A program made the position numbers and the translations under genes. From positions 1 through 64,000 of the forward strand of contig JAEINY010000001.1 in NCBI GenBank assembly GCA_016342595.1: 64,000 nt of DNA. The letters run 5' to 3'. The notes below the pieces were generated by a model. The model saw only the letters and a list, made by a program, of their open reading frames with translations, had not been told where the DNA came from and ran no database searches. The stretch comes from Marinilabiliaceae bacterium. GTDB taxonomy: Bacteria; Bacteroidota; Bacteroidia; Bacteroidales; Marinilabiliaceae. Positions 9,571 through 21,930 of this stretch are shown here, one piece after another. Positions within the stretch are counted from its first letter, which is position 1. Every line of letters starts with the position of its first letter.

Positions 9571-10815
9571 TTGAAAGCGTTAAGAAGATTACTCGATAAT
9601 ATCAAACCTCACGTTCAAAAGGGCGGGAAGTTTGAAAAATTTCACTCTACTTTTGATGCCTTTGAAACCTTATTGTTTGTGCCTGATGCGACAAACAAAA
9701 ACGGTGTGCATGTGAGAGATTCCATTGACATGAAACGTACAATGGCGGTGGTGGTGATGGCATTAGTACCGGCCTTTTTATTTGGTATTTGGAATACCGG
9801 TTATTTTCACTTCCAATCCATTGGACAGGAAGTTGGATTTTGGGCTGAGTTCCTGCACGGGGCATTGCAAGTATTACCCATTGTGATTGTTTCATATGTA
9901 GTTGGATTAGGAGTTGAATTTGCCTTTGCTCAAATGCGAGGACACGAGGTGAATGAAGGTTTCCTGGTTTCAGGGATGTTAATTCCGTTGATTGTACCGG
10001 TGGATACACCTTTGTGGATGGTTGCTGTAGCCACAATTTTTGCAGTGATTATTGGTAAAGAAGTATTTGGTGGAACAGGTATGAATATCTGGAACCCGGC
10101 TTTGATTGCCCGTGCCTTCTTATTCTTTGCCTATCCTTCAAAAATGTCTGGTAACCTGGTTTGGGTATCCGGACTAAGCAAAGGAGAAGGTGTTGTGGAT
10201 GGTTTCTCCGGAGCAACTGCATTGGGAGATGTGGCATCTACTTTGCCGATAACGAAAGGTATTGCAGAAGCACAAAAGATAGGTGATGTAGCTTTAGCCT
10301 CAGATTTACAGGGAAAACTGGATTCTATTTTAGGAAATGTACCGGATTTATGGAATTCCTTTTTAGGTTTTATACCTGGTTCTATTGGTGAAACATCTAC
10401 GCTGGCTATTCTGATTGGTGCTGCGATATTGATTTATACAGGTATCGCGAACTGGAAAATTATGTTATCAGTATTTGCCGGTGGTTATGTGATGGCCTTA
10501 GGGTTTAATGCAATTGGTGCTAATGAGTTGATGAATTTACCGGCGCTTCATCATTTGTGTTTAGGTGGTTTTGCCTTTGGAGCTGTATTTATGGCTACTG
10601 ATCCGGTTTCCGCTTCCAGAACAGAAAGAGGTAAATTGATATATGGCTTCTTAATTGGAGTGTTTGCTATTTTAATACGTGTATTTAATCCCGCCTTTCC
10701 GGAAGGGATGATGTTGGCTATTCTGTTGATGAATACCTTTGCACCATTGATCGACCATTTTGTGGTTCAGGGAAATATTAACCGTCGCTTGAAAAGAGCT
10801 AAAGTAAACGCCTAA
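9571..10815 (+). CDS. nqrB: Na+-NQR subunit B
   Basis: 414 aa membrane subunit. Begins with TTG (9571); homologs begin MKALR..LD, which matches this frame, and no ATG is near. About ten transmembrane segments are visible. The flavinylation motif SGATAL has the acceptor Thr at 216, where ApbE attaches FMN through phosphate. NqrB forms much of the Na+ path and the riboflavin/FMN site. The ApbE that could do the modification is encoded at 20938-21930. Confidence 0.97.
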   Translation: MKALRRLLDNIKPHVQKGGKFEKFHSTFDAFETLLFVPDATNKNGVHVRDSIDMKRTMAVVVMALVPAFLFGIWNTGYFHFQSIGQEVGFWAEFLHGALQVLPIVIVSYVVGLGVEFAFAQMRGHEVNEGFLVSGMLIPLIVPVDTPLWMVAVATIFAVIIGKEVFGGTGMNIWNPALIARAFLFFAYPSKMSGNLVWVSGLSKGEGVVDGFSGATALGDVASTLPITKGIAEAQKIGDVALASDLQGKLDSILGNVPDLWNSFLGFIPGSIGETSTLAILIGAAILIYTGIANWKIMLSVFAGGYVMALGFNAIGANELMNLPALHHLCLGGFAFGAVFMATDPVSASRTERGKLIYGFLIGVFAILIRVFNPAFPEGMMLAILLMNTFAPLIDHFVVQGNINRRLKRAKVNA

Positions 10816-12852: not shown

Positions 12853-14112
12853 ATGATATTATTAGCAAGTCAGAGTACAATAATACTTATCAGTGTTGTG
12901 GTGTTCCTGTTGGTCGTCCTAACACTGGTTTCTATATTGCTCTATGCCAAGAAAAAGTTAATGCCTTCGGGAGAGGTAACGATTGATATTAACAAAGGAG
13001 ATAAAAAACTGGTTGTGGAACCAGGACAAACGCTTCTATCGGCATTGGGGAGTAATAAAATCTTCTTGCCTTCAGCCTGTGGTGGAGGTGGTACATGTGC
13101 TATGTGTCGCTGTCAGGTAGACAGTGGTGCCGGTTCTATTTTACCAACTGAGACCGGTTATTTTACCCGTAAAGAGCAAGCCAATAACTGGCGTTTAGCT
13201 TGTCAGGTGAAGGTAAAAGAAGATATGACCATGTCCATTCCGCAAGAGGTGATGGGTATTAAGAAGTGGGAATGTGAAGTGGTGTCTAACGATGGTCAGG
13301 CTACCTTTATTAAAGAATTTGTGGTGAAGTTGCCTGAGGGCGAAATTTTAGACTTTAAATCAGGTGGTTATATCCAGATTGATGTACCTAAGATTGATGT
13401 GGATTTCAAGGATATGATCATTGAGGATGAGTACCGTGGTGAGTGGGAGAAATTTGGTATGTTCGATCTTCAGATGAAGAATCCGGAGCCCACCTATCGC
13501 GCCTACTCCATGGCCAACCACCCTGCGGAAGGTAATATTGTGATGTTGAACATCCGTATTGCAACACCTCCGTTTGATAGAGTAGCTGGTGGCTTCATGA
13601 AAGTAAATCCGGGTATCTGTTCATCATTTATCTTCTCGCGTAAGCCAGGTGATAAAGTGACTGTTTCAGGTCCTTACGGAGAATTCTTTATTAAAGAAAC
13701 AGAGCGTGAGATGATGTTTATTGGTGGTGGTGCCGGTATGGCACCAATGCGTTCACACATCTTCCACCTGTTCCATACTTTGAAAACTGGTCGTAAGGCT
13801 ACTTTCTGGTATGGTGCACGCTCTAAGAAAGAGATTTTCTACGAAGATCACTTCCGTGCCATCGAGAAAGAGTTCCCGAACTTCAAGTTCACCATCGCCT
13901 TGTCTGAGCCGCTACCAGAAGATAACTGGGAAGGTTCAAAAGGCTTTATTCACCAGGTGATTCACGATGAATACCTGAATAAGCATGAAGAGCCGGAAGA
14001 TATCGAATATTACTTATGTGGACCTCCAATGATGAATGATGCAGTCACAAAAATGCTGTATGATTTGGGAGTGCCAGATGAAATGGTAGACTTCGATGAT
14101 TTCGGATCATAG
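12853..14112 (+). CDS. nqrF: Na+-NQR subunit F, NADH dehydrogenase
   Basis: 419 aa. Entry point of electrons from NADH. An N-terminal helix (about 8-31), then a 2Fe-2S ferredoxin domain with Cys at 76, 82, 85 and 117, then ferredoxin-NADP reductase-like FAD (RAYSMANHP) and NADH (FIGGGAGMAPMRSH, YLCGPPMMNDAV) domains. Ends with the usual FDDFGS. Last gene of the operon, followed by a strong terminator. Confidence 0.97.
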   Translation: MILLASQSTIILISVVVFLLVVLTLVSILLYAKKKLMPSGEVTIDINKGDKKLVVEPGQTLLSALGSNKIFLPSACGGGGTCAMCRCQVDSGAGSILPTETGYFTRKEQANNWRLACQVKVKEDMTMSIPQEVMGIKKWECEVVSNDGQATFIKEFVVKLPEGEILDFKSGGYIQIDVPKIDVDFKDMIIEDEYRGEWEKFGMFDLQMKNPEPTYRAYSMANHPAEGNIVMLNIRIATPPFDRVAGGFMKVNPGICSSFIFSRKPGDKVTVSGPYGEFFIKETEREMMFIGGGAGMAPMRSHIFHLFHTLKTGRKATFWYGARSKKEIFYEDHFRAIEKEFPNFKFTIALSEPLPEDNWEGSKGFIHQVIHDEYLNKHEEPEDIEYYLCGPPMMNDAVTKMLYDLGVPDEMVDFDDFGS

Positions 14113-14120
14113 ATATTTTA

Positions 14121-14147
14121 AAAGCCCCTGCGAAGGGGCTTTTTTTA
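14121..14147 (+). terminator. Terminator of the nqr operon
   Basis: AAAGCCCC - TGCGAA - GGGGCTTT with a T run, 9 bp after the nqrF stop. Confidence 0.92.
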
Positions 14148-14190
14148 TATTTTTTTACTTTATTTGAGCCTTCTTTAAAAATAGATTATC

Positions 14191-17100
14191 ATGGCTCAAC
14201 AATTCGGCAAGACCTGGTGGGGTGAACATTTTCTAAATGCACTAACTCAGATTGATTTTTCCAATAGATTACCTCGGGGAAGAAGTTATGCCCGCAATGG
14301 TTATGTGGCTGAAATAAAAACAGCAGGCAATAGTATTAATGCAAAAGTAAAAGGAAGTCGCCGCACACCGTACAAGGTTGAAATTATTGTGCCATTGTTT
14401 ACCGATTCGCAACGGAAACTGTTAATGCAAGCCATCAGCAATGATCCATTAGTGCTTTCTCTTCTGCTTAATCGTGAATTACCCGATGAACTTAATACAA
14501 TAGCCCAAAAACATAAAATAGCTGTTTTTCCTAAAAAATGGTCTGATTTTAGGATGAGTTGTTCTTGTCCCGATTGGGCAGTACCGTGTAAACACCTGGC
14601 TTCTGTAATTTATATGCTTTCGGCAGAGATTGATCGTAATCCGTTTTTAATTTTTCAATTACATGGTCTGGATATTCTAAAAGAGCTGGCGAAAGGGGGA
14701 ATGACCGTTGAGAAAGAATTGAATATCCCACGGTTTGATCAACTCTTTATCGACAATCCGGTTGAACCTGTTGGTGAGAATAGTCAGAGCGGGGAGCATT
14801 TTGACCTTTCAAGGGTAACACCTCAAATGGATAATCTGTTATCTCTTCTCGACTCAAAGGTGGTTTTTTATGAAAAGGCATTTGTTCCGGTTTTGCGAAA
14901 AAACTATCGAAATGTTATTCGTCATTCGAAAATACTGCTGAATCAGGATGTGGTGGAATTTGAACCAAAAATGTTTGAGCGGATTGATAAGGTGGAGATG
15001 TTCGTGCATAATGATACTTTTTTTCACAAGGTTATGTTTCATTCAGATAAGGGAGCACTAACATTTGAAGCATCAGACGATGGTTTTGATTCACTCATTA
15101 ACTATTTGGCACGACTGCCTAAAAAATTTGAACATCGACTTTCTAAAGGGTTAAAAACGCTTTATAAAGCATATCATTTTAGTTTAAAATTGGCCGAATG
15201 CGGTGCTTTTATTCCGCAGTTGCTGGAGTTGAAGAAAAATATGATTGTTATTCGGTGGATTCCAGCTGTTATAAACGAGGATGTGAATCAGTTGCTTATT
15301 GTGCTTCAGCAAAGTATTCCACATGATTTGATACAAGTGAGAATCAATGCAACGAGTCAAAAGTATTTATCGCCTCGCGAACAGATCATTGCACTAGTGT
15401 CTCTGTTTTTAACACATTATATGAAAGCAGTTGGATCTGCACCATTTAAATTAACTCAGAATACGGAAGCGAAAATTGAACAGCTATTCTTCAGAAATTA
15501 CTTTCAGGCGTTTACGAAGCTTAGTGAAAATCAAATACCGGAAGCAATTCATCAGTATCTTCAGCGATTTTTATTGGGTGAAAAATTGTATGTGCCGCTG
15601 ATAAAAATAGAAGATAAGGGCTATGATAACACTTTTGACCTTCAGTTGTGGGTTGAAAACCGGAAAGATTCGCTACAGGAACCTTTAGTGCTTAAAAATT
15701 TTATCGAAGATCAGGCATATAATGAATCCAAAGCTTCGGTATTCCAATCATTGGCCAGTTTAGCGCGCGATTTTACGGCTATAAAGCCACTGATATCCTC
15801 TTCAGGTACCGAACAGCTTTTGTTTGATTCGGATAGTTTTGCTGAGGTCTTGTTAATCATATTGCCTTTGGTTAAACTCTTGGGTATACGTGTGTTATTG
15901 CCCAATTCATTAAAAAGCCTGGCGCGGCCTAAACCATCGTTGAAATTGGAGAGTAAGGAATCTGATACCACCGGAAAAAGTTATTTGAATCTGGATGAAA
16001 TGCTTCAGTTTGAATGGCAGATTGCCATTGGGGATAAAACGATACCTGTTCACGAATTTAGGGAGCTGGTAAAGAACATGTCTGGAGTTGTGAATATTAA
16101 AGGGGAATATGTGTTGATTGATCAGAAAGAGATACAGACACTCCTTAATAATCTTGATGAAGAAAAGAATCTTTCACGGGTTGAGCTTCTTCAGTCTGCG
16201 CTATCGGAAGAATATCAGGAGGCAAAAATTTCTCTCTCCGCTGCTGCCCGTAAGGTTGTCAATGAATTATTGCAGGGTGACCCAAGAGCTATTCCTCAGA
16301 ACTTAAATGCCACATTACGGCCTTATCAGGAGCGGGGGTATCAATGGTTGTATAACAATAGTAAAGTTGGTTTTGGGAGTATCATAGCGGATGATATGGG
16401 ACTTGGAAAAACATTGCAAGTCATTAGCTTATTGCTGCAATTTAAGCATGAAGGCCGTTTGGATAAGAAAAAGGCACTCATTGTTGTTCCTACAACGCTG
16501 ATCACCAACTGGCAGAAAGAGATAGAGCGATTTGCTCCGGAGTTAGTTCCCCACATTTATCATGGCGCCAAACGTGAATTTAAAACCATGGAATGCGATT
16601 TGATAATTACTTCCTATGGCATGTTGCGTAGCGATGCATCAAAATTTCAAAAGGTTAAATGGGAGGTTTTGGCCATTGATGAAGCTCAAAATATTAAAAA
16701 CCCGGGAACAGAACAGACTAAGGTTGTAAAGAAATTAAAAGCTGATGTGAAAATCGCCATTAGTGGCACACCTGTTGAAAACAGGCTTAGTGAATACTGG
16801 AGTCTGTTTGATTTTGTGAATAAAGGATATCTTGGATCGGCTAAATATTTTAAGAAAGTTTTTGCTTCTCCTATTGAAAATGATAACAATGAACAGCAAC
16901 TTGGGAGGTTTAAAAAAATTACAGATCCTTTTATTCTTCGACGGTTAAAAACCGATAAATCAATCATCTCGGATTTACCCGAAAAAATTGAACACGACTG
17001 TTTTGTTCAGCTTACCAAGGAGCAAACAGCACTGTATCAAAATGTGGTTAACGCCATGATGGAAACGCTCAATGCCACCGAAGAAAATTCAATAGAGCGG

Positions 17101-17712
17101 AAAGGATTAGTGCTAAAATTGATGACTGCCTTAAAGCAAATATGTAATCATCCGTCTCAATTTCTGAAAAAAGAAGATTATCAGGTGGATTTGTCGGGGA
17201 AAACTGAAATGTTGTTGGAGCTGCTGCGATCGATTTATGAAAATGATGAAAAAGTATTGATTTTCACTCAATACAAAGAGATGGGGCATATCCTCGCACA
17301 CATACTGGAGGATGTTTTTGATACTAAGCCGCTGTTTTTACATGGTGGTGTTTCACGCCATAAAAGAGATGAAATGGTGGAAGGATTTCAGAATAAAAAA
17401 CATTTTAAAATATTCATCCTATCCATAAAAGCGGGTGGTACCGGACTAAATTTAACAGCTGCGAATCATGTGATTCATTACGATCTTTGGTGGAATCCGG
17501 CTGTGGAAGCCCAGGCAACAGACAGAGCCTTTCGCATTGGACAGCAGAAAAATGTAATGGTGCATCGTTTAATTTCCCAGGGAACGTTTGAAGAAAAAAT
17601 TAATCAAATGTTACTGGGTAAAAAGCAATTGGCCGAACTAACTGTGTCAGCTGGTGAGAAATGGATTGGCGATCTGTCTAATAACGAACTTCAGGAGTTG
17701 GTTAAATTGTAA
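14191..17712 (+). CDS. SWIM zinc-finger SNF2-family helicase/ATPase
   Basis: 1173 aa. N-terminal SWIM zinc finger with Cys124, Cys126, Cys133 and His135 (CSCPDWAVPCKH). Residues of about 200-700 form the poorly conserved middle of bacterial HepA/RapA-like SNF2 proteins. The ATPase starts near 705: NLNATLRPYQERGYQWL, Walker A DDMGLGKT (about 733-740), DEAQ box (about 829-832), SGTPVENRLSEYWSLFDF, and C-terminal helicase motifs GGTGLNLTAANHVIHYD and QATDRAFRIGQ (1108-1118). It should move along double-stranded DNA or remodel protein-DNA complexes; target unknown. It is followed 94 bp later by an ERCC4-type nuclease gene and then by a broken copy of itself. Lower GC than the nqr genes by eye. 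Confidence 0.92.
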   Translation: MAQQFGKTWWGEHFLNALTQIDFSNRLPRGRSYARNGYVAEIKTAGNSINAKVKGSRRTPYKVEIIVPLFTDSQRKLLMQAISNDPLVLSLLLNRELPDELNTIAQKHKIAVFPKKWSDFRMSCSCPDWAVPCKHLASVIYMLSAEIDRNPFLIFQLHGLDILKELAKGGMTVEKELNIPRFDQLFIDNPVEPVGENSQSGEHFDLSRVTPQMDNLLSLLDSKVVFYEKAFVPVLRKNYRNVIRHSKILLNQDVVEFEPKMFERIDKVEMFVHNDTFFHKVMFHSDKGALTFEASDDGFDSLINYLARLPKKFEHRLSKGLKTLYKAYHFSLKLAECGAFIPQLLELKKNMIVIRWIPAVINEDVNQLLIVLQQSIPHDLIQVRINATSQKYLSPREQIIALVSLFLTHYMKAVGSAPFKLTQNTEAKIEQLFFRNYFQAFTKLSENQIPEAIHQYLQRFLLGEKLYVPLIKIEDKGYDNTFDLQLWVENRKDSLQEPLVLKNFIEDQAYNESKASVFQSLASLARDFTAIKPLISSSGTEQLLFDSDSFAEVLLIILPLVKLLGIRVLLPNSLKSLARPKPSLKLESKESDTTGKSYLNLDEMLQFEWQIAIGDKTIPVHEFRELVKNMSGVVNIKGEYVLIDQKEIQTLLNNLDEEKNLSRVELLQSALSEEYQEAKISLSAAARKVVNELLQGDPRAIPQNLNATLRPYQERGYQWLYNNSKVGFGSIIADDMGLGKTLQVISLLLQFKHEGRLDKKKALIVVPTTLITNWQKEIERFAPELVPHIYHGAKREFKTMECDLIITSYGMLRSDASKFQKVKWEVLAIDEAQNIKNPGTEQTKVVKKLKADVKIAISGTPVENRLSEYWSLFDFVNKGYLGSAKYFKKVFASPIENDNNEQQLGRFKKITDPFILRRLKTDKSIISDLPEKIEHDCFVQLTKEQTALYQNVVNAMMETLNATEENSIERKGLVLKLMTALKQICNHPSQFLKKEDYQVDLSGKTEMLLELLRSIYENDEKVLIFTQYKEMGHILAHILEDVFDTKPLFLHGGVSRHKRDEMVEGFQNKKHFKIFILSIKAGGTGLNLTAANHVIHYDLWWNPAVEAQATDRAFRIGQQKNVMVHRLISQGTFEEKINQMLLGKKQLAELTVSAGEKWIGDLSNNELQELVKL

Positions 17713-17806
17713 ACACAAATATTTCACATCAAATGCTTAAAGAACACTTTGTAGATCACTCATGTTGCCTTTTGGGTGGAACACTTTATTTCAGTATCTT
17801 ATTTTA

Positions 17807-18445
17807 ATGAATGAGAATAAAATAGTAACTATTATTGCCGATCACCGCGAACGGAGCTCTGGTATTCCGCAAGGTTTAGTCGAAAGTGGTGTATTTACTG
17901 AAGTAAAGACATTGATAAGCGGTGATTACCTGATTAATAATCTAATTATTGTGGAACGAAAGACGAAGGATGATTTTTCATTGTCATTGATTCAACAGCG
18001 TTTATTTAAACAATGTGCCAATATGATGAAGACTATTTACCGTCCACTGTTTATAATTGAAGGTAACCCGTATAAAACAATTCATGATGTGAATCGGGAT
18101 TCAATTAAAGGTGCTCTTTTATCCATTGCTGTAACCTGGAACATTCCTGTTGTCTATTCCTCTGGCTCGTCAGATACCGTTAACTTACTTATTCAAATAG
18201 CTGTCCACGATTTACGATCAAAGGTTAACTACATACGCCCCGGGTACAAACCAAAGACTTTCGTTAAACAGAATCTCTACTTTCTACAAGGTATTCCTTC
18301 AGTTGGGCCGCAATTAGCACATAAACTTCTTCACTCTTTCGGTTCCGTTCACCGCGTGCTTTCAGCCACGTCCGATGAATTACAAAACATTTCTGGTGTA
18401 GGAAAAGCACGGGCATTGAAGATCAGGGCATTTCTTTCAGGTTAG
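17807..18445 (+). CDS. XPF/ERCC4-type nuclease with helix-hairpin-helix tail
   Basis: 212 aa from the ATG at 17807, chosen because the family starts just before the first strand (IVTIIADHRERSSGIPQ); an in-frame ATG at 17762 adds 15 unlike residues. The catalytic signature GD-Xn-ERK-X3-D is intact: GD at 39-40, ERK at 50-52, Asp56. Two helix-hairpin-helix units close the protein (LQGIPSVGPQLAHKLL, ISGVGKARALKIR). It resembles the nuclease half of archaeal Hef/XPF, which cuts branched DNA; the helicase half is absent but a SNF2 enzyme is encoded next door. Such stand-alone genes are uncommon in bacteria. Role in repair, recombination or defence is inference. Confidence 0.88.
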   Translation: MNENKIVTIIADHRERSSGIPQGLVESGVFTEVKTLISGDYLINNLIIVERKTKDDFSLSLIQQRLFKQCANMMKTIYRPLFIIEGNPYKTIHDVNRDSIKGALLSIAVTWNIPVVYSSGSSDTVNLLIQIAVHDLRSKVNYIRPGYKPKTFVKQNLYFLQGIPSVGPQLAHKLLHSFGSVHRVLSATSDELQNISGVGKARALKIRAFLSG

Positions 18446-18574
18446 CAGCTTAATATTGAGTAGGAAATTCAGAGATGTCTGGCCATAATATCAAGAGAAT
18501 GTTGTTAAAAGGTAATTTGTGGGTATGAAACTCAGATTTTTATTGTCTTTGAGCTTTGCAAAATATGTAATATT

Positions 18575-19052
18575 ATGGCTCACCATTTCAGTAGAAGCTG
18601 GTGGGGTGAACAATTTTTGAACGCATTAACAGAGATTGATTTTTCCAATAGATTTCCTCGGGGAAGATGTTACACACGCAATGGTTATGTGGCTGAAATA
18701 AACACTGCAGACAATAGTATCAAAGCAAAAGTATAAGGAAGTGGCCGCACTCCGTACAAGGTCAAATATTATTGTGCCCTTGTTTACCAATTCTGAACGA
18801 AACCAGTTAATGCACGTCATCAGCAATGATCCATTAGTGCTGTCCCTTCTAATAAATCGTGAATTACCTGATGATGGCCGAATGGTGTGTTTTTATTCAG
18901 CAGTTGCTGGAGTTGAAGAAAAATATGATTGTTATATGGTGGATTCCAGCTGTTATAAACGAGGATGTGAATCAGTTATTTTTATGAATCACGTTCAGTC
19001 GTATAATGAATTCAATGCTTCGGTATCTCAATCACTGGCTGGTTTGATCTTA
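18575..19052 (+). pseudogene. Degenerate partial copy of the SNF2/SWIM helicase gene
   Basis: Begins ATG GCT CAC CAT TTC, parallel to the helicase start, and follows it closely for about 100 codons, but has TAA at 18734-18736 (Lys in the intact gene) and a frameshift near 18765. It then jumps: 18896-18978 matches about 15209-15297 of the intact gene, and 18998-19050 matches about 15711-15762. So two large internal deletions removed the SWIM finger and most of the middle, and the ATPase is missing. The ERCC4 nuclease gene lies between the intact and the broken copy, which points to an old duplication of the helicase gene followed by decay. Confidence 0.9.
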
Positions 19053-19155
19053 AATTAAGTCAGATGCTGATAAATATCACCTGAAACATTGATAAGAAGC
19101 ATTTATTTTGCATTTCTTTTTTGAATGGCATCAAGCATTAAACAATTATAGTAAC

Positions 19156-20850
19156 ATGGAATTACAATCGACCAAGGTGTATAAAAGTGATTTGGAGATA
19201 GCGCAAGGGGCTAAAATGCAACACATATCAAAAATTGCGGCTAAGCTAAATATTGCCGTTGATGATTTGGAGATGTATGGTAAATTTAAGGCCAAGCTTC
19301 CGTTGAACTTGATTGATGAAGAAAAAGTAGCTCAAAACAATCTCATATTGGTAACAGCACTAACGCCAACTCCTGCCGGTGAAGGTAAAACAACGGTATC
19401 GATTGGCTTAAGCGAAGGTTTAAATCTTCTTGGTAAGAAAGCTACAGTGGTTTTGCGTGAGCCATCCCTTGGGCCTGTTTTTGGCATAAAAGGTGGCGCT
19501 GCCGGAGGGGGCTATGCGCAGGTTGTGCCTATGGAGGATATTAATTTGCATTTTACAGGAGACTTCTCTGCCGTTGAGAAAGCAAATAACCTTTTGGCTG
19601 CCTTAATTGACAATAATATTCAAAGTAAAACACGTAGTTTAAATATCGACCCAAGAACTGTTGTTTGGAAGCGGGTGATCGATACGAATGATCGGGCTTT
19701 GCGTGACATTGTTATTGGCTTGGGTGGAACAGGAAATAGTATTCCACGTCAGGATGGTTTTAATATTACCGCAGCTTCGGAAATTATGGCCATCTTATGT
19801 ATGGCTAAAGGGTTGGAAGATTTAAAAGATAAATTAGGAAAAATATTTGTTGGGTTTACATTCGACAAAAAACCAATATATGCACGAGATATTAAAGCTC
19901 AAGGAGCAATGGCTTTATTATTGAAAGATGCTGTTAAACCCAATTTAGTGCAGACATTAGAGGGGAATCCAGCCATTATTCATGGCGGACCATTTGCCAA
20001 TATAGCACAGGGAACAAATACCATTTTAGCCACAAAGATGGGCTTGTCCTTATCAGATTATGTGGTGACAGAGGCTGGTTTTGGTGCAGATCTGGGTGCG
20101 GAGAAGTTTTTAAATATCAAATCGGTTGTAGGTGGATTAAAGCCTAAAGCAATGGTGATTGTGGCAACAATACGTGCGTTGCGTCATCATGGTGGAGCCA
20201 GCAAAGAGGAATACAACACACCAAATAAGCAGCGAGTGGATATTGGTTTTGCCAATTTGGCTAAGCATATTGAAAATGGCAAAAAGTTTGGTTTAAATCC
20301 AGTCATAGCCATTAATAATTTCATTTCGGATAGCGAAGCGGAAATAACATTGGTTAAAACCAGATGTGCTGAAATGGGCGTCGAGGCTGTTTTATGCCAA
20401 TCATGGGAGTTTGGTGGAGAAGGTTCTGTAGACCTGGCAAGAGCCGTTGTTCATTCAATAGAGAATGGGAATAATAATTTCACTCCACTATACGACCATA
20501 AAGCACCGGTTAAAACTAAAATTGAAACGATAGCCCGCGAAATATATGGCGCAGATGGAGTCGATTTCTCCAAACAAGCCTTAGCCGATATCAAAAAAAT
20601 TGAGTCTTTAGGTTTGCATGAATTGCCGGTTTGTATGGCCAAAACTCAGAAGTCATTCTCAGATAACGAAAAGTTGGTTGGAAGACCAACCGGTTTTACA
20701 GTAACGGTTCGCGAATTTGAAATAGCAGCGGGTGCTGGTTTTATCATTCCGATTTTGGGTAAGATGATGCGAATGCCTGGCTTGCCTGCTGTACCTGCTT
20801 CTGAAGGAATGGACATTGACAGTGATGGTGTTATTTCTGGTTTGTCATAA
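19156..20850 (+). CDS. fhs: Formate-tetrahydrofolate ligase
   Basis: 564 aa from the ATG at 19156 (MELQSTKVYKSDLEIAQGAK, the usual start region; an in-frame TTG upstream at 19108 is less likely). Joins formate to tetrahydrofolate using ATP to give 10-formyl-THF for one-carbon metabolism. ATP loop TPTPAGEGKTT; further family motifs LREPSLGPVFGIKGGAAGGG, NLHFTGDFSAVEKANNLLAA, TEAGFGADLGAEKF, and the C-terminal GAGFIIPILGKMMRMPGLP. Length is normal. Followed by apbE after 87 bp. Confidence 0.97.
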   Translation: MELQSTKVYKSDLEIAQGAKMQHISKIAAKLNIAVDDLEMYGKFKAKLPLNLIDEEKVAQNNLILVTALTPTPAGEGKTTVSIGLSEGLNLLGKKATVVLREPSLGPVFGIKGGAAGGGYAQVVPMEDINLHFTGDFSAVEKANNLLAALIDNNIQSKTRSLNIDPRTVVWKRVIDTNDRALRDIVIGLGGTGNSIPRQDGFNITAASEIMAILCMAKGLEDLKDKLGKIFVGFTFDKKPIYARDIKAQGAMALLLKDAVKPNLVQTLEGNPAIIHGGPFANIAQGTNTILATKMGLSLSDYVVTEAGFGADLGAEKFLNIKSVVGGLKPKAMVIVATIRALRHHGGASKEEYNTPNKQRVDIGFANLAKHIENGKKFGLNPVIAINNFISDSEAEITLVKTRCAEMGVEAVLCQSWEFGGEGSVDLARAVVHSIENGNNNFTPLYDHKAPVKTKIETIAREIYGADGVDFSKQALADIKKIESLGLHELPVCMAKTQKSFSDNEKLVGRPTGFTVTVREFEIAAGAGFIIPILGKMMRMPGLPAVPASEGMDIDSDGVISGLS

Positions 20851-20862
20851 AAAAAGAAGAAA

Positions 20863-20902
20863 TGATATTTGAAGATAAATACTTATCGAGGCTCAAATAT
20901 CA
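20863..20902. other. Short inverted repeat between fhs and apbE
   Basis: TGATATTTGA (20863-20872) and TCAAATATCA (20893-20902), 20-nt loop. No T run follows, so it is not a clear terminator. It could trim or protect the fhs message. Confidence 0.4.
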
Positions 20903-20937
20903 CTTGTTATGAATTTCGACATTAAACTATCTCAACC

Positions 20938-21930
20938 ATGAAAAATATATTACTAATTCTGATACTTTCCCTTTTGGTAAGTTGTCAGCCGTCTAAACGT
21001 GAATTTATTCGTAACGAAGGTTTTATTTTCGGAACCACTTATCACCTCATATATGATCATTCAGAGGATTTGCACGAGGATATTAAAATTAAATTTAATG
21101 AGTTTGATCTGTCCTTGTCCACCTACAACAAGCAATCAATCATCAGCAAAGTAAACAGAAATGAACCGGTAGAGGTGGATCATTTTTTTAAAACGGTTTT
21201 TCAAAAGGCTGCTGAAGTGACTCAGGCCACAGAAGGGGCATTTGATATGACCATTGGGCCACTGGCCAATGCCTGGGGATTTGGGTTTTCCAATAAGGAT
21301 AGCATTACTTCTGAATTGGTGGACAGCTTACTGATCAACATGGGTATGGATAAATTAAAGCTGGAAGGAAATCGTGTAGTTAAAACGAATCCGGATATTG
21401 TTTTGAATGTGAATGCCCTTGCAAAAGGCTATGGCGTGGACGTTATTGCCCGCTTATTGGAGCAACATGGCATCACCAACTACATGGTTGAGATAGGGGG
21501 TGAATTACGCGTAAAAGGGTATAATCAGAAACATTCACACTGGCGGGTTGGTATTGACAAGCCGGTGGATGATCCTGAAGTGATGAGTCGTGATTTACAG
21601 GAAGTCATTTCCATTACCAATACAGCTCTGGCGACCTCCGGGAATTATCGCAATTTTTATTTTAAGGAGGGTAAAAAATATGCCCATACCATTAGTCCAT
21701 ATACCGGTTATCCGGTTCAACATCAATTATTGTCGGCTTCCGTCATTGCCCCTGATTGTATGACTGCCGATGCCTATGCCACAGCATTTATGGTTTTAGG
21801 ATTGGAAAAGAGTCTTGAAATTATGAAGCAACATCCTGAATTGGAAGCCTATTTTATCAGCAGTGATGAGCAGGAAACCTATCGAATTACCATGACTGAT
21901 AATTTTCATAAATTCATTGATGAAAAATGA
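20938..21930 (+). CDS. apbE: FAD:protein FMN transferase, lipoprotein
   Basis: 330 aa. Lipoprotein signal with lipobox LLVSC (Cys16). ApbE splits FAD and attaches FMN to Thr of target proteins outside the membrane, here presumably NqrB Thr216 and NqrC Thr208. Family motifs: EGAFDMTIGPLANAWGFG, LNVNALAKGYGVDVIARLL, MVEIGGELRVKG, HTISPYTGYP, and the Mg/FAD-binding PDCMTADAYATAFM. The nqr operon lies 7 kb upstream on the same strand; two small genes convergent with apbE probably also serve NQR assembly. Confidence 0.95.
   Translation: MKNILLILILSLLVSCQPSKREFIRNEGFIFGTTYHLIYDHSEDLHEDIKIKFNEFDLSLSTYNKQSIISKVNRNEPVEVDHFFKTVFQKAAEVTQATEGAFDMTIGPLANAWGFGFSNKDSITSELVDSLLINMGMDKLKLEGNRVVKTNPDIVLNVNALAKGYGVDVIARLLEQHGITNYMVEIGGELRVKGYNQKHSHWRVGIDKPVDDPEVMSRDLQEVISITNTALATSGNYRNFYFKEGKKYAHTISPYTGYPVQHQLLSASVIAPDCMTADAYATAFMVLGLEKSLEIMKQHPELEAYFISSDEQETYRITMTDNFHKFIDEK

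Follow-up and report, generated by a model that had tools for sequence, protein, structure and literature searches.

Does a helicase gene that lies directly beside a nuclease gene work together with it? The question is raised by a locus in a Marinilabiliaceae bacterium (GenBank assembly GCA_016342595.1; 6.76 Mb, 461 contigs, completeness 98.99%, contamination 6.04%), from which we analysed positions 1 to 64,000 of contig JAEINY010000001.1 (this whole stretch of 64,000 nucleotides is the window; contig 36 of the assembly). In the window, a gene for an SNF2 enzyme with a SWIM zinc finger (SWIM-SNF2) is followed by a gene for an XPF-type (ERCC4) nuclease and then by a decayed copy of the helicase gene. 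Most likely, two independent accessory DNA-maintenance genes have become neighbors by chance where the sequence separating nqrF from apbE is variable, with a decayed local duplicate. The three-part anatomy had been recognized in a preliminary description of the DNA, made from the sequence alone, and is confirmed as follows.

14191–17712, forward strand: predicted SWIM-SNF2 translocase gene, 1173 aa (Pfam domains, 1Z63 match, NCBIfam score)
17807–18445, forward strand: stand-alone ERCC4-(HhH)2 nuclease gene, 212 aa, short-XPF layout (Pfam, 2BGW profile match, predicted fold)
18575–18874, forward strand: remnant piece 1, residues 1–99 of the helicase, 85% DNA identity, with an in-frame stop and a frameshift (match to helicase gene)
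18875–18977, forward strand: remnant piece 2, residues 334–368, 94% DNA identity (match to helicase gene)
18995–19045, forward strand: remnant piece 3, residues 507–524, 82% DNA identity (match to helicase gene)

Anatomy of the helicase gene, the nuclease gene and the remnant

By comparison with known families, the first gene would encode a SWI2/SNF2 translocase of double-strand DNA that resembles SsoRad54 and carries a SWIM zinc finger fused to its N-terminus. Three Pfam domains score above cut-off in the protein, namely DUF3670 (residues 541–670), SNF2-rel_dom (712–989) and Helicase_C (1004–1117). The SWIM finger (residues 123–143) reaches 17.9 bits, slightly below the Pfam cut-off of 19.6; its zinc ligands C124, C126, C133 and H135 are all recognizable by eye and satisfy the CxCxnCxH pattern. 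With such a finger and an SNF2 motor (residues 702–1173), the protein falls among the SWIM-associated SWI2/SNF2 ATPases, a group mentioned together with SsoRad54 in the accessible part of PMC5512222. The motor is complete, its catalytic core is intact, and the closest solved structure is SsoRad54 (1Z63; 445 bits compared to 244 bits for the runner-up). The likeness to SsoRad54 is limited to the motor, whereas the window protein joins SWIM finger and motor in one 1173-residue chain whose middle region is long. The top NCBIfam model, the SCO1167/SCO6262 helicase (NF058637), scores 643 bits over residues 512–1173, but this is below the curated cut-off of 1200 and the N-terminal half of the protein lies outside the match.

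The second gene encodes a stand-alone XPF-type nuclease that, judging by its sequence, adds a new bacterial member to a known family. Its open reading frame (ORF) extends from 17762 (227 aa), and alignment with relatives makes the ATG at 17807 the likelier start. The ERCC4 domain, the only match of its kind found in the genome, scores 86 bits against a Pfam cut-off of 24 and is accompanied by HhH. The catalytic site GDYL...ERKTKDD, corresponding to the GDXnERKX3D motif of the XPF/MUS81 family, is intact, and D40, E50, R51, K52 and D56 are invariant across 29 chosen sequences. Among solved structures, profile matching ranks Aeropyrum pernix XPF first (2BGW, 152 bits, whole length); this protein is also the top Foldseek match (E 3e-17) of an AlphaFold model with pLDDT 92 and pTM 0.64. 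Full-chain rmsd values to the fold matches are high (6.5–13.8), probably due to different placement of the two domains, as the separate domains superpose closely (1.7 for the 1J24 nuclease domain and 0.9 for 1X2I). Pfam, the 2BGW profile, the model and the fold search thus agree on an ERCC4 fold followed by (HhH)2 with no helicase, i.e., the short-XPF layout.

The archaeal short XPF of A. pernix (2BGW/2BHN) shares with the window nuclease the stand-alone ERCC4 and (HhH)2 domains, a length of about 210 residues and the catalytic motif; the window protein differs in being bacterial, about 30% identical and terminated directly after (HhH)2. No Q-x-x-[ILMV]-x-x-[FYW]2 pattern for PCNA interaction was found in its last 40 residues, and the archaeal rows were likewise without a match to this crude pattern. 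The NCBIfam model of the archaeal Xpf 3'-flap endonuclease (NF040956) gave 98.3 bits, short of its curated cut-off of 300, and the best NCBIfam score, for the C-terminal part of Hef, was 190 bits against a cut-off of 610. Hef, XPF and FANCM resemble the window nuclease in their nuclease and HhH parts, whereas the window chain of 212–227 residues has no helicase domain and the adjoining motor is of the SNF2/Rad54 type. Identification of the window nuclease as Hef was rejected on the Hef score and on the absence of the N-terminal SF2 helicase from the chain. The preliminary description had contrasted the separate helicase and nuclease with the single chains of Hef and XPF, but this contrast is misplaced because crenarchaeal XPF is free of a helicase and an SsoRad54-like motor is not the Hef/XPF helicase. 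In archaeal short XPF, it is usual for the nuclease to come without a helicase. As far as the accessible texts go, crenarchaeal XPF is described as the nuclease alone (PMC6320978), archaeal Xpf as a 3'-flap endonuclease (PMC4471258) and Hef as specific to euryarchaeal species (PMC7776575).

By analogy with these families, the nuclease most likely acts as a homodimer. Its (HhH)2 domains would dimerize and hold the duplex arms of branched DNA, and the GD/ERK/D center would nick beside a single/double-strand junction, such as a 3' flap, splayed arm or fork. Nicking of this kind may aid repair or fork restart.

The remnant comprises three collinear pieces that match the 5' half of the helicase gene (E = 8e-98, 2e-42 and 7e-10), and nothing at 18575–19045 matches the 3' half. 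The identities refer to 300 bases from the ATG for piece 1 (83% over 339 bases including ~38 bases of 5' leader), 103 bases for piece 2 and 51 bases for piece 3. The lesions are an in-frame TAA, a frameshift and two internal deletions; ORF 18741–19058 belongs to the remnant and is not a gene. Piece 1 is 85% identical to the adjoining gene compared to 65–68% to the SNF2 genes of genomes G031, G027 and G559, which are 70–71% identical to the intact window gene over the same stretch. Because the remnant is closer to its neighbor than to the genes of these relatives, it derives from a local duplication younger than the split from them. The helicase gene or its 5' part would have been copied downstream after the split from the sampled relatives, and the extra copy would have decayed since. 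The 45 substitutions in piece 1 are distributed over codon positions 1, 2 and 3 as 12, 5 and 28, as expected if selection was retained on at least one copy. Piece 2 is more similar than piece 1 (6/103 vs 45/300 differences; Fisher P = 0.016), which may reflect later gene conversion.

Linkage and co-occurrence in other genomes

The pairing was not seen in the other genomes sampled. No ERCC4 ORF was present at any of the 28 other SWIM-SNF2 loci, and the two genes were not seen together in any of the six genomes holding both (G015, G027, G031, G559, G719 and G736). Among the genomes with both genes apart is that of the cultured relative Plebeiobacterium marinum. G031 has the two genes on the same contig, separated by 3.3 Mb, and G015, G027, G559 and G736 have them on different contigs; in G015, G559 and G719 (L036, L191 and L053), about 10 kb on either side of the ERCC4 gene is without SWIM-SNF2. 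The separation is clear in G015, G031, G559 and G719 and less firm in the remaining two, because the ERCC4 pieces and the SNF2 gene of G027 are near contig ends and the ERCC4 contig of G736 is only 5.3 kb long.

Clustering of ORFs of at least 80 aa from 87 ERCC4 and 29 SNF2 loci (the window is in both sets, and some ERCC4 contigs are included twice) placed ERCC4 at no SNF2 locus except that of the window. Four further ERCC4 loci contain an ORF of the SNF2 cluster. A different, 994-aa helicase is located ~6.5 kb from ERCC4 in L052, the locus of the closest relative of the window nuclease; L052 begins at a contig edge with the upstream gene beyond it, and the SWIM-SNF2 N-terminal part is unmatched in the genome that L052 comes from (G718). 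In L068 and L070, the ERCC4 region is inside a fused Hef-like protein of 772 or 797 aa, and in L089, a 498-aa helicase-like ORF overlaps the ERCC4 ORF, resembling a split Hef; the Hef labels were assigned from layout. L068 and L070 are Nitrososphaerales loci, and their fused proteins, if they are Hef, are at odds with a euryarchaeal-only distribution.

Co-occurrence across the order gave a similar picture. The N-terminal 680 residues of SWIM-SNF2 were matched in 29/295 Bacteroidales genomes, fragments included. Without the window's genome, ERCC4 was found in 18 and SWIM-SNF2 in 28 of 294 genomes, with one genome (G559) common to both and 1.7 expected. SWIM-SNF2 also occurred in two (G719 and G736) of 20 genomes gathered as ERCC4 carriers, about the base rate of the order; two of the 20 are outside Bacteroidota, and one (G737) seems to repeat G557 of the order sample. 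Among 60 relatives, long SWIM-SNF2 matches were obtained in G012 (split), G015, G027, G028, G031, G043 and G048 (one stop); the match in G033 is divergent. Fragments of SWIM-SNF2 were detected in G029 and G461 (with stops), G058, G658 and G663 (contig edge). The preliminary description had proposed a helicase-nuclease module and had regarded the pairing as chance should the genes not be neighbors elsewhere; on linkage and order-wide co-occurrence, the functional pairing was rejected, with a weak family excess remaining.

No neighbor of the ERCC4 gene recurs beyond a few related loci (maximum five) in the 32 Bacteroidota-type ERCC4 loci compared, and the commonest Bacteroidota family shared across whole loci, of response-regulator type, is in seven, with no fixed position. 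The compared loci revealed no conserved partner for either gene. One of the few common ERCC4 neighbors is a HAD-like ORF that adjoins the gene in both G027 (L039) and Marinilabiliaceae N1Y90 (L057).

Other helicase genes were observed close to SWIM-SNF2. A RecQ/UvrD-like fusion (1.6 kaa) is beside or near it at 3/29 loci (L043, L046 and L170; two of the three were Pfam-checked), and a RecQ-like gene and RecD2 are each present at one of the 29 (L044 and L034, respectively). The cases are too few to call RecQ/RecD helicases the real partner of SWIM-SNF2.

The nqrF-apbE interval and the origin of the arrangement

Both genes and the remnant lie, together with a formate-tetrahydrofolate ligase gene (fhs), between genes that are closely spaced in many relatives.

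12853–14112: nqrF-like gene (Pfam Fer2 and NAD_binding_1)
14113–20937, no strand: interval between the nqrF-like gene and apbE, holding SNF2, ERCC4, remnant and fhs (relatives' nqrF loci, Pfam)
19156–20850: fhs (Pfam FTHFS)
20938–21930: apbE (Pfam ApbE)

In 16 of 29 nqrF loci of relatives (the 29 best matches), apbE starts at most 1.5 kb after nqrF. The interval holds a different 8 kb in G011 (L248) and is only ~0.8 kb long in G019 (L250). None of 17 fhs loci of relatives has nqrF, apbE, SNF2 or ERCC4 within 1.5 kb. The interval is therefore a variable gene-insertion spot in relatives, and the window arrangement looks like accumulated insertions. A clean empty site among relatives was not obtained, because the nqrF-apbE spacing varies, as in L248, and fhs is elsewhere in 17/17 loci. 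The ten flanking proteins (between 6731 and 25354) belong to housekeeping Pfam families only, including Na+-NQR subunits, FTHFS, ApbE, dehydrogenase E1 and a T9SS plug protein, with no transposase or integrase family among them. Composition was compared for signs of a foreign origin. The GC contents of the two genes (38.6% and 39.0%) are lower than those of nine neighbors (39.7–43.9%) but within the range of the window, ranking 4 and 6 of 41 ORFs. Of 11 genes, these two also score lowest in codon use, but the reference was built from the remaining nine, and the values are within the window's range.

Several observations weigh against adjacency by chance. SWIM-SNF2 and ERCC4 are codirectional and 94 bases apart, and no TAnnTTTG box, the Bacteroidetes -7 motif, was found at 17641–17830, so co-transcription is possible. 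Within the family, 3/36 other genomes have both genes (G015, G027 and G031), with 1.0 expected (P = 0.045; 0.024 without G033 and 0.073 with the G029 fragment counted), an excess from a test picked after seeing the data and the one result leaning, weakly, towards a link. The relatives sampled include no genome of the same genus, and the comparison does not cover genus-limited linkage. On one side, six of the 28 other SNF2 loci (L037, L040, L046, L166, L167 and L170) stop no more than ~0.8 kb from the gene; for three of them (L040, L046 and L167) this is the 3' side, the position of ERCC4 in the window. Among the 28 other SNF2-positive genomes of the order, six (G058, G461, G588, G658, G663 and G686; fragments or partial) are outside the 28-locus comparison, which is limited to ORFs of at least 80 aa and could miss a decayed ERCC4. 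A lineage-specific functional pair, in which the co-transcribed translocase and nuclease would act together in remodeling and cutting branched DNA, as a two-gene counterpart of Hef, would account for the shared strand, the short gap, the family excess and the intact catalytic cores of both proteins. We nevertheless consider it improbable, as the genes were not seen adjacent in other sampled genomes, their order-wide co-occurrence shows no excess, and the motor is SsoRad54-type rather than the Hef/FANCM helicase.

An anti-phage or anti-plasmid module, also raised in the preliminary description, appears very improbable. Zorya, DISARM and Dpd systems use SNF2 motors, the PADLOC models of ZorD and DpdE match the window protein strongly, and both genes are patchy and at times decayed. 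However, these matches are confined to the C-terminal motor part (best 610–1154), the ten flanking proteins (E 1e-5) and the ERCC4 protein (0.01) gave no PADLOC match, and neither a defence-island sign nor a conserved partner was found. Membership in Zorya, Dpd or DISARM was rejected, as the partner genes of these systems were not found alongside, among the ten flanking proteins and the ERCC4 protein. Also unlikely is a third reading, in which the nuclease gene arrived within a moving segment that included fhs and thereby came to separate two tandem SNF2 copies. The position of ERCC4, with the intact gene before it and the remnant after it, the interruption of nqrF-apbE by the stretch, and neighbors that differ in most of the 32 ERCC4 loci are in line with such a segment; on the other side stand the lack of any neighbor accompanying ERCC4 or SNF2 past a few related loci, flanking proteins free of transposases and integrases, and GC values inside the window's range. 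Chance adjacency of two independent accessory genes at the nqrF-apbE spot is retained as the best explanation. The earlier suggestion that the duplication reflects rearrangement or mobility is upheld for local rearrangement, by the decayed duplicate and the insertion between nqrF and apbE, and not for mobility, as the ten flanking proteins carry no mobile-element sign.

Stand-alone XPF-type genes in bacteria

The nuclease type, previously described as rare in bacteria, is indeed uncommon. ERCC4 scored above cut-off in 3/395 genomes of the phylum, and PF02732 was found in 19/295 Bacteroidales genomes, the window's genome included in both. Matches beyond a bare HhH were present in G002, G015, G025, G026, G027, G031 and G049 among the 60 relatives, and the gene is decayed in several family members (three stops in G025, fragmented with stops in G026 and broken in G027). 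G027 carries ERCC4 pieces at two sites ~3 kb apart on one contig (L038; G027:C27, 116–3489) and a third piece, which may belong to one of the others, at the edge of another contig (L039; G027:C6, 216085–216372). This suggests that the nuclease gene of G027 is also duplicated and decayed.

The bacterial rows of a 58-sequence tree, including one long-branched Rhodocyclaceae row, form one group (97/91, marked as starred and open) separate from those of the archaea; a midpoint root was drawn for display, from which the direction of any transfer cannot be read. The window nuclease pairs with that of L052 (54% identity; support 96/72, not starred). By pattern, the catalytic motif is present in 43/44 bacterial ERCC4 ORFs longer than 190 aa (three contigs are counted twice; the exception is L086) and in 7/14 archaeal ones. 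A short ERCC4-like stretch also occurs in a recurring cluster in Acidobacteriota and a few others (L095–L111, e.g., L098 and L104, match near 10001–10357), together with a RecD2-like ORF, a primase/helicase-like ORF and a recombinase-like NTPase (labels by eye), and this cluster looks like a mobile-element replication module.

The removal of a helicase-nuclease module in bacteria as a false lead leaves the nuclease to be considered by itself. Among the titles listed by a literature search of open-licence full text, none was seen on a bacterial XPF, and a review describes XPF proteins as being without direct orthologs in bacteria, a statement that the scattered bacterial short-XPF genes qualify. 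The evidence seems to us evenly balanced on whether Bacteroidota have their own stand-alone XPF lineage, apart from the archaeal one, that would resolve branched DNA without PCNA or a partner helicase. If true, XPF-type activity would exist in a domain of life from which XPF orthologs are said to be absent, and the bacterial short-XPF genes would be a simple system for XPF nuclease action without PCNA or a helicase.

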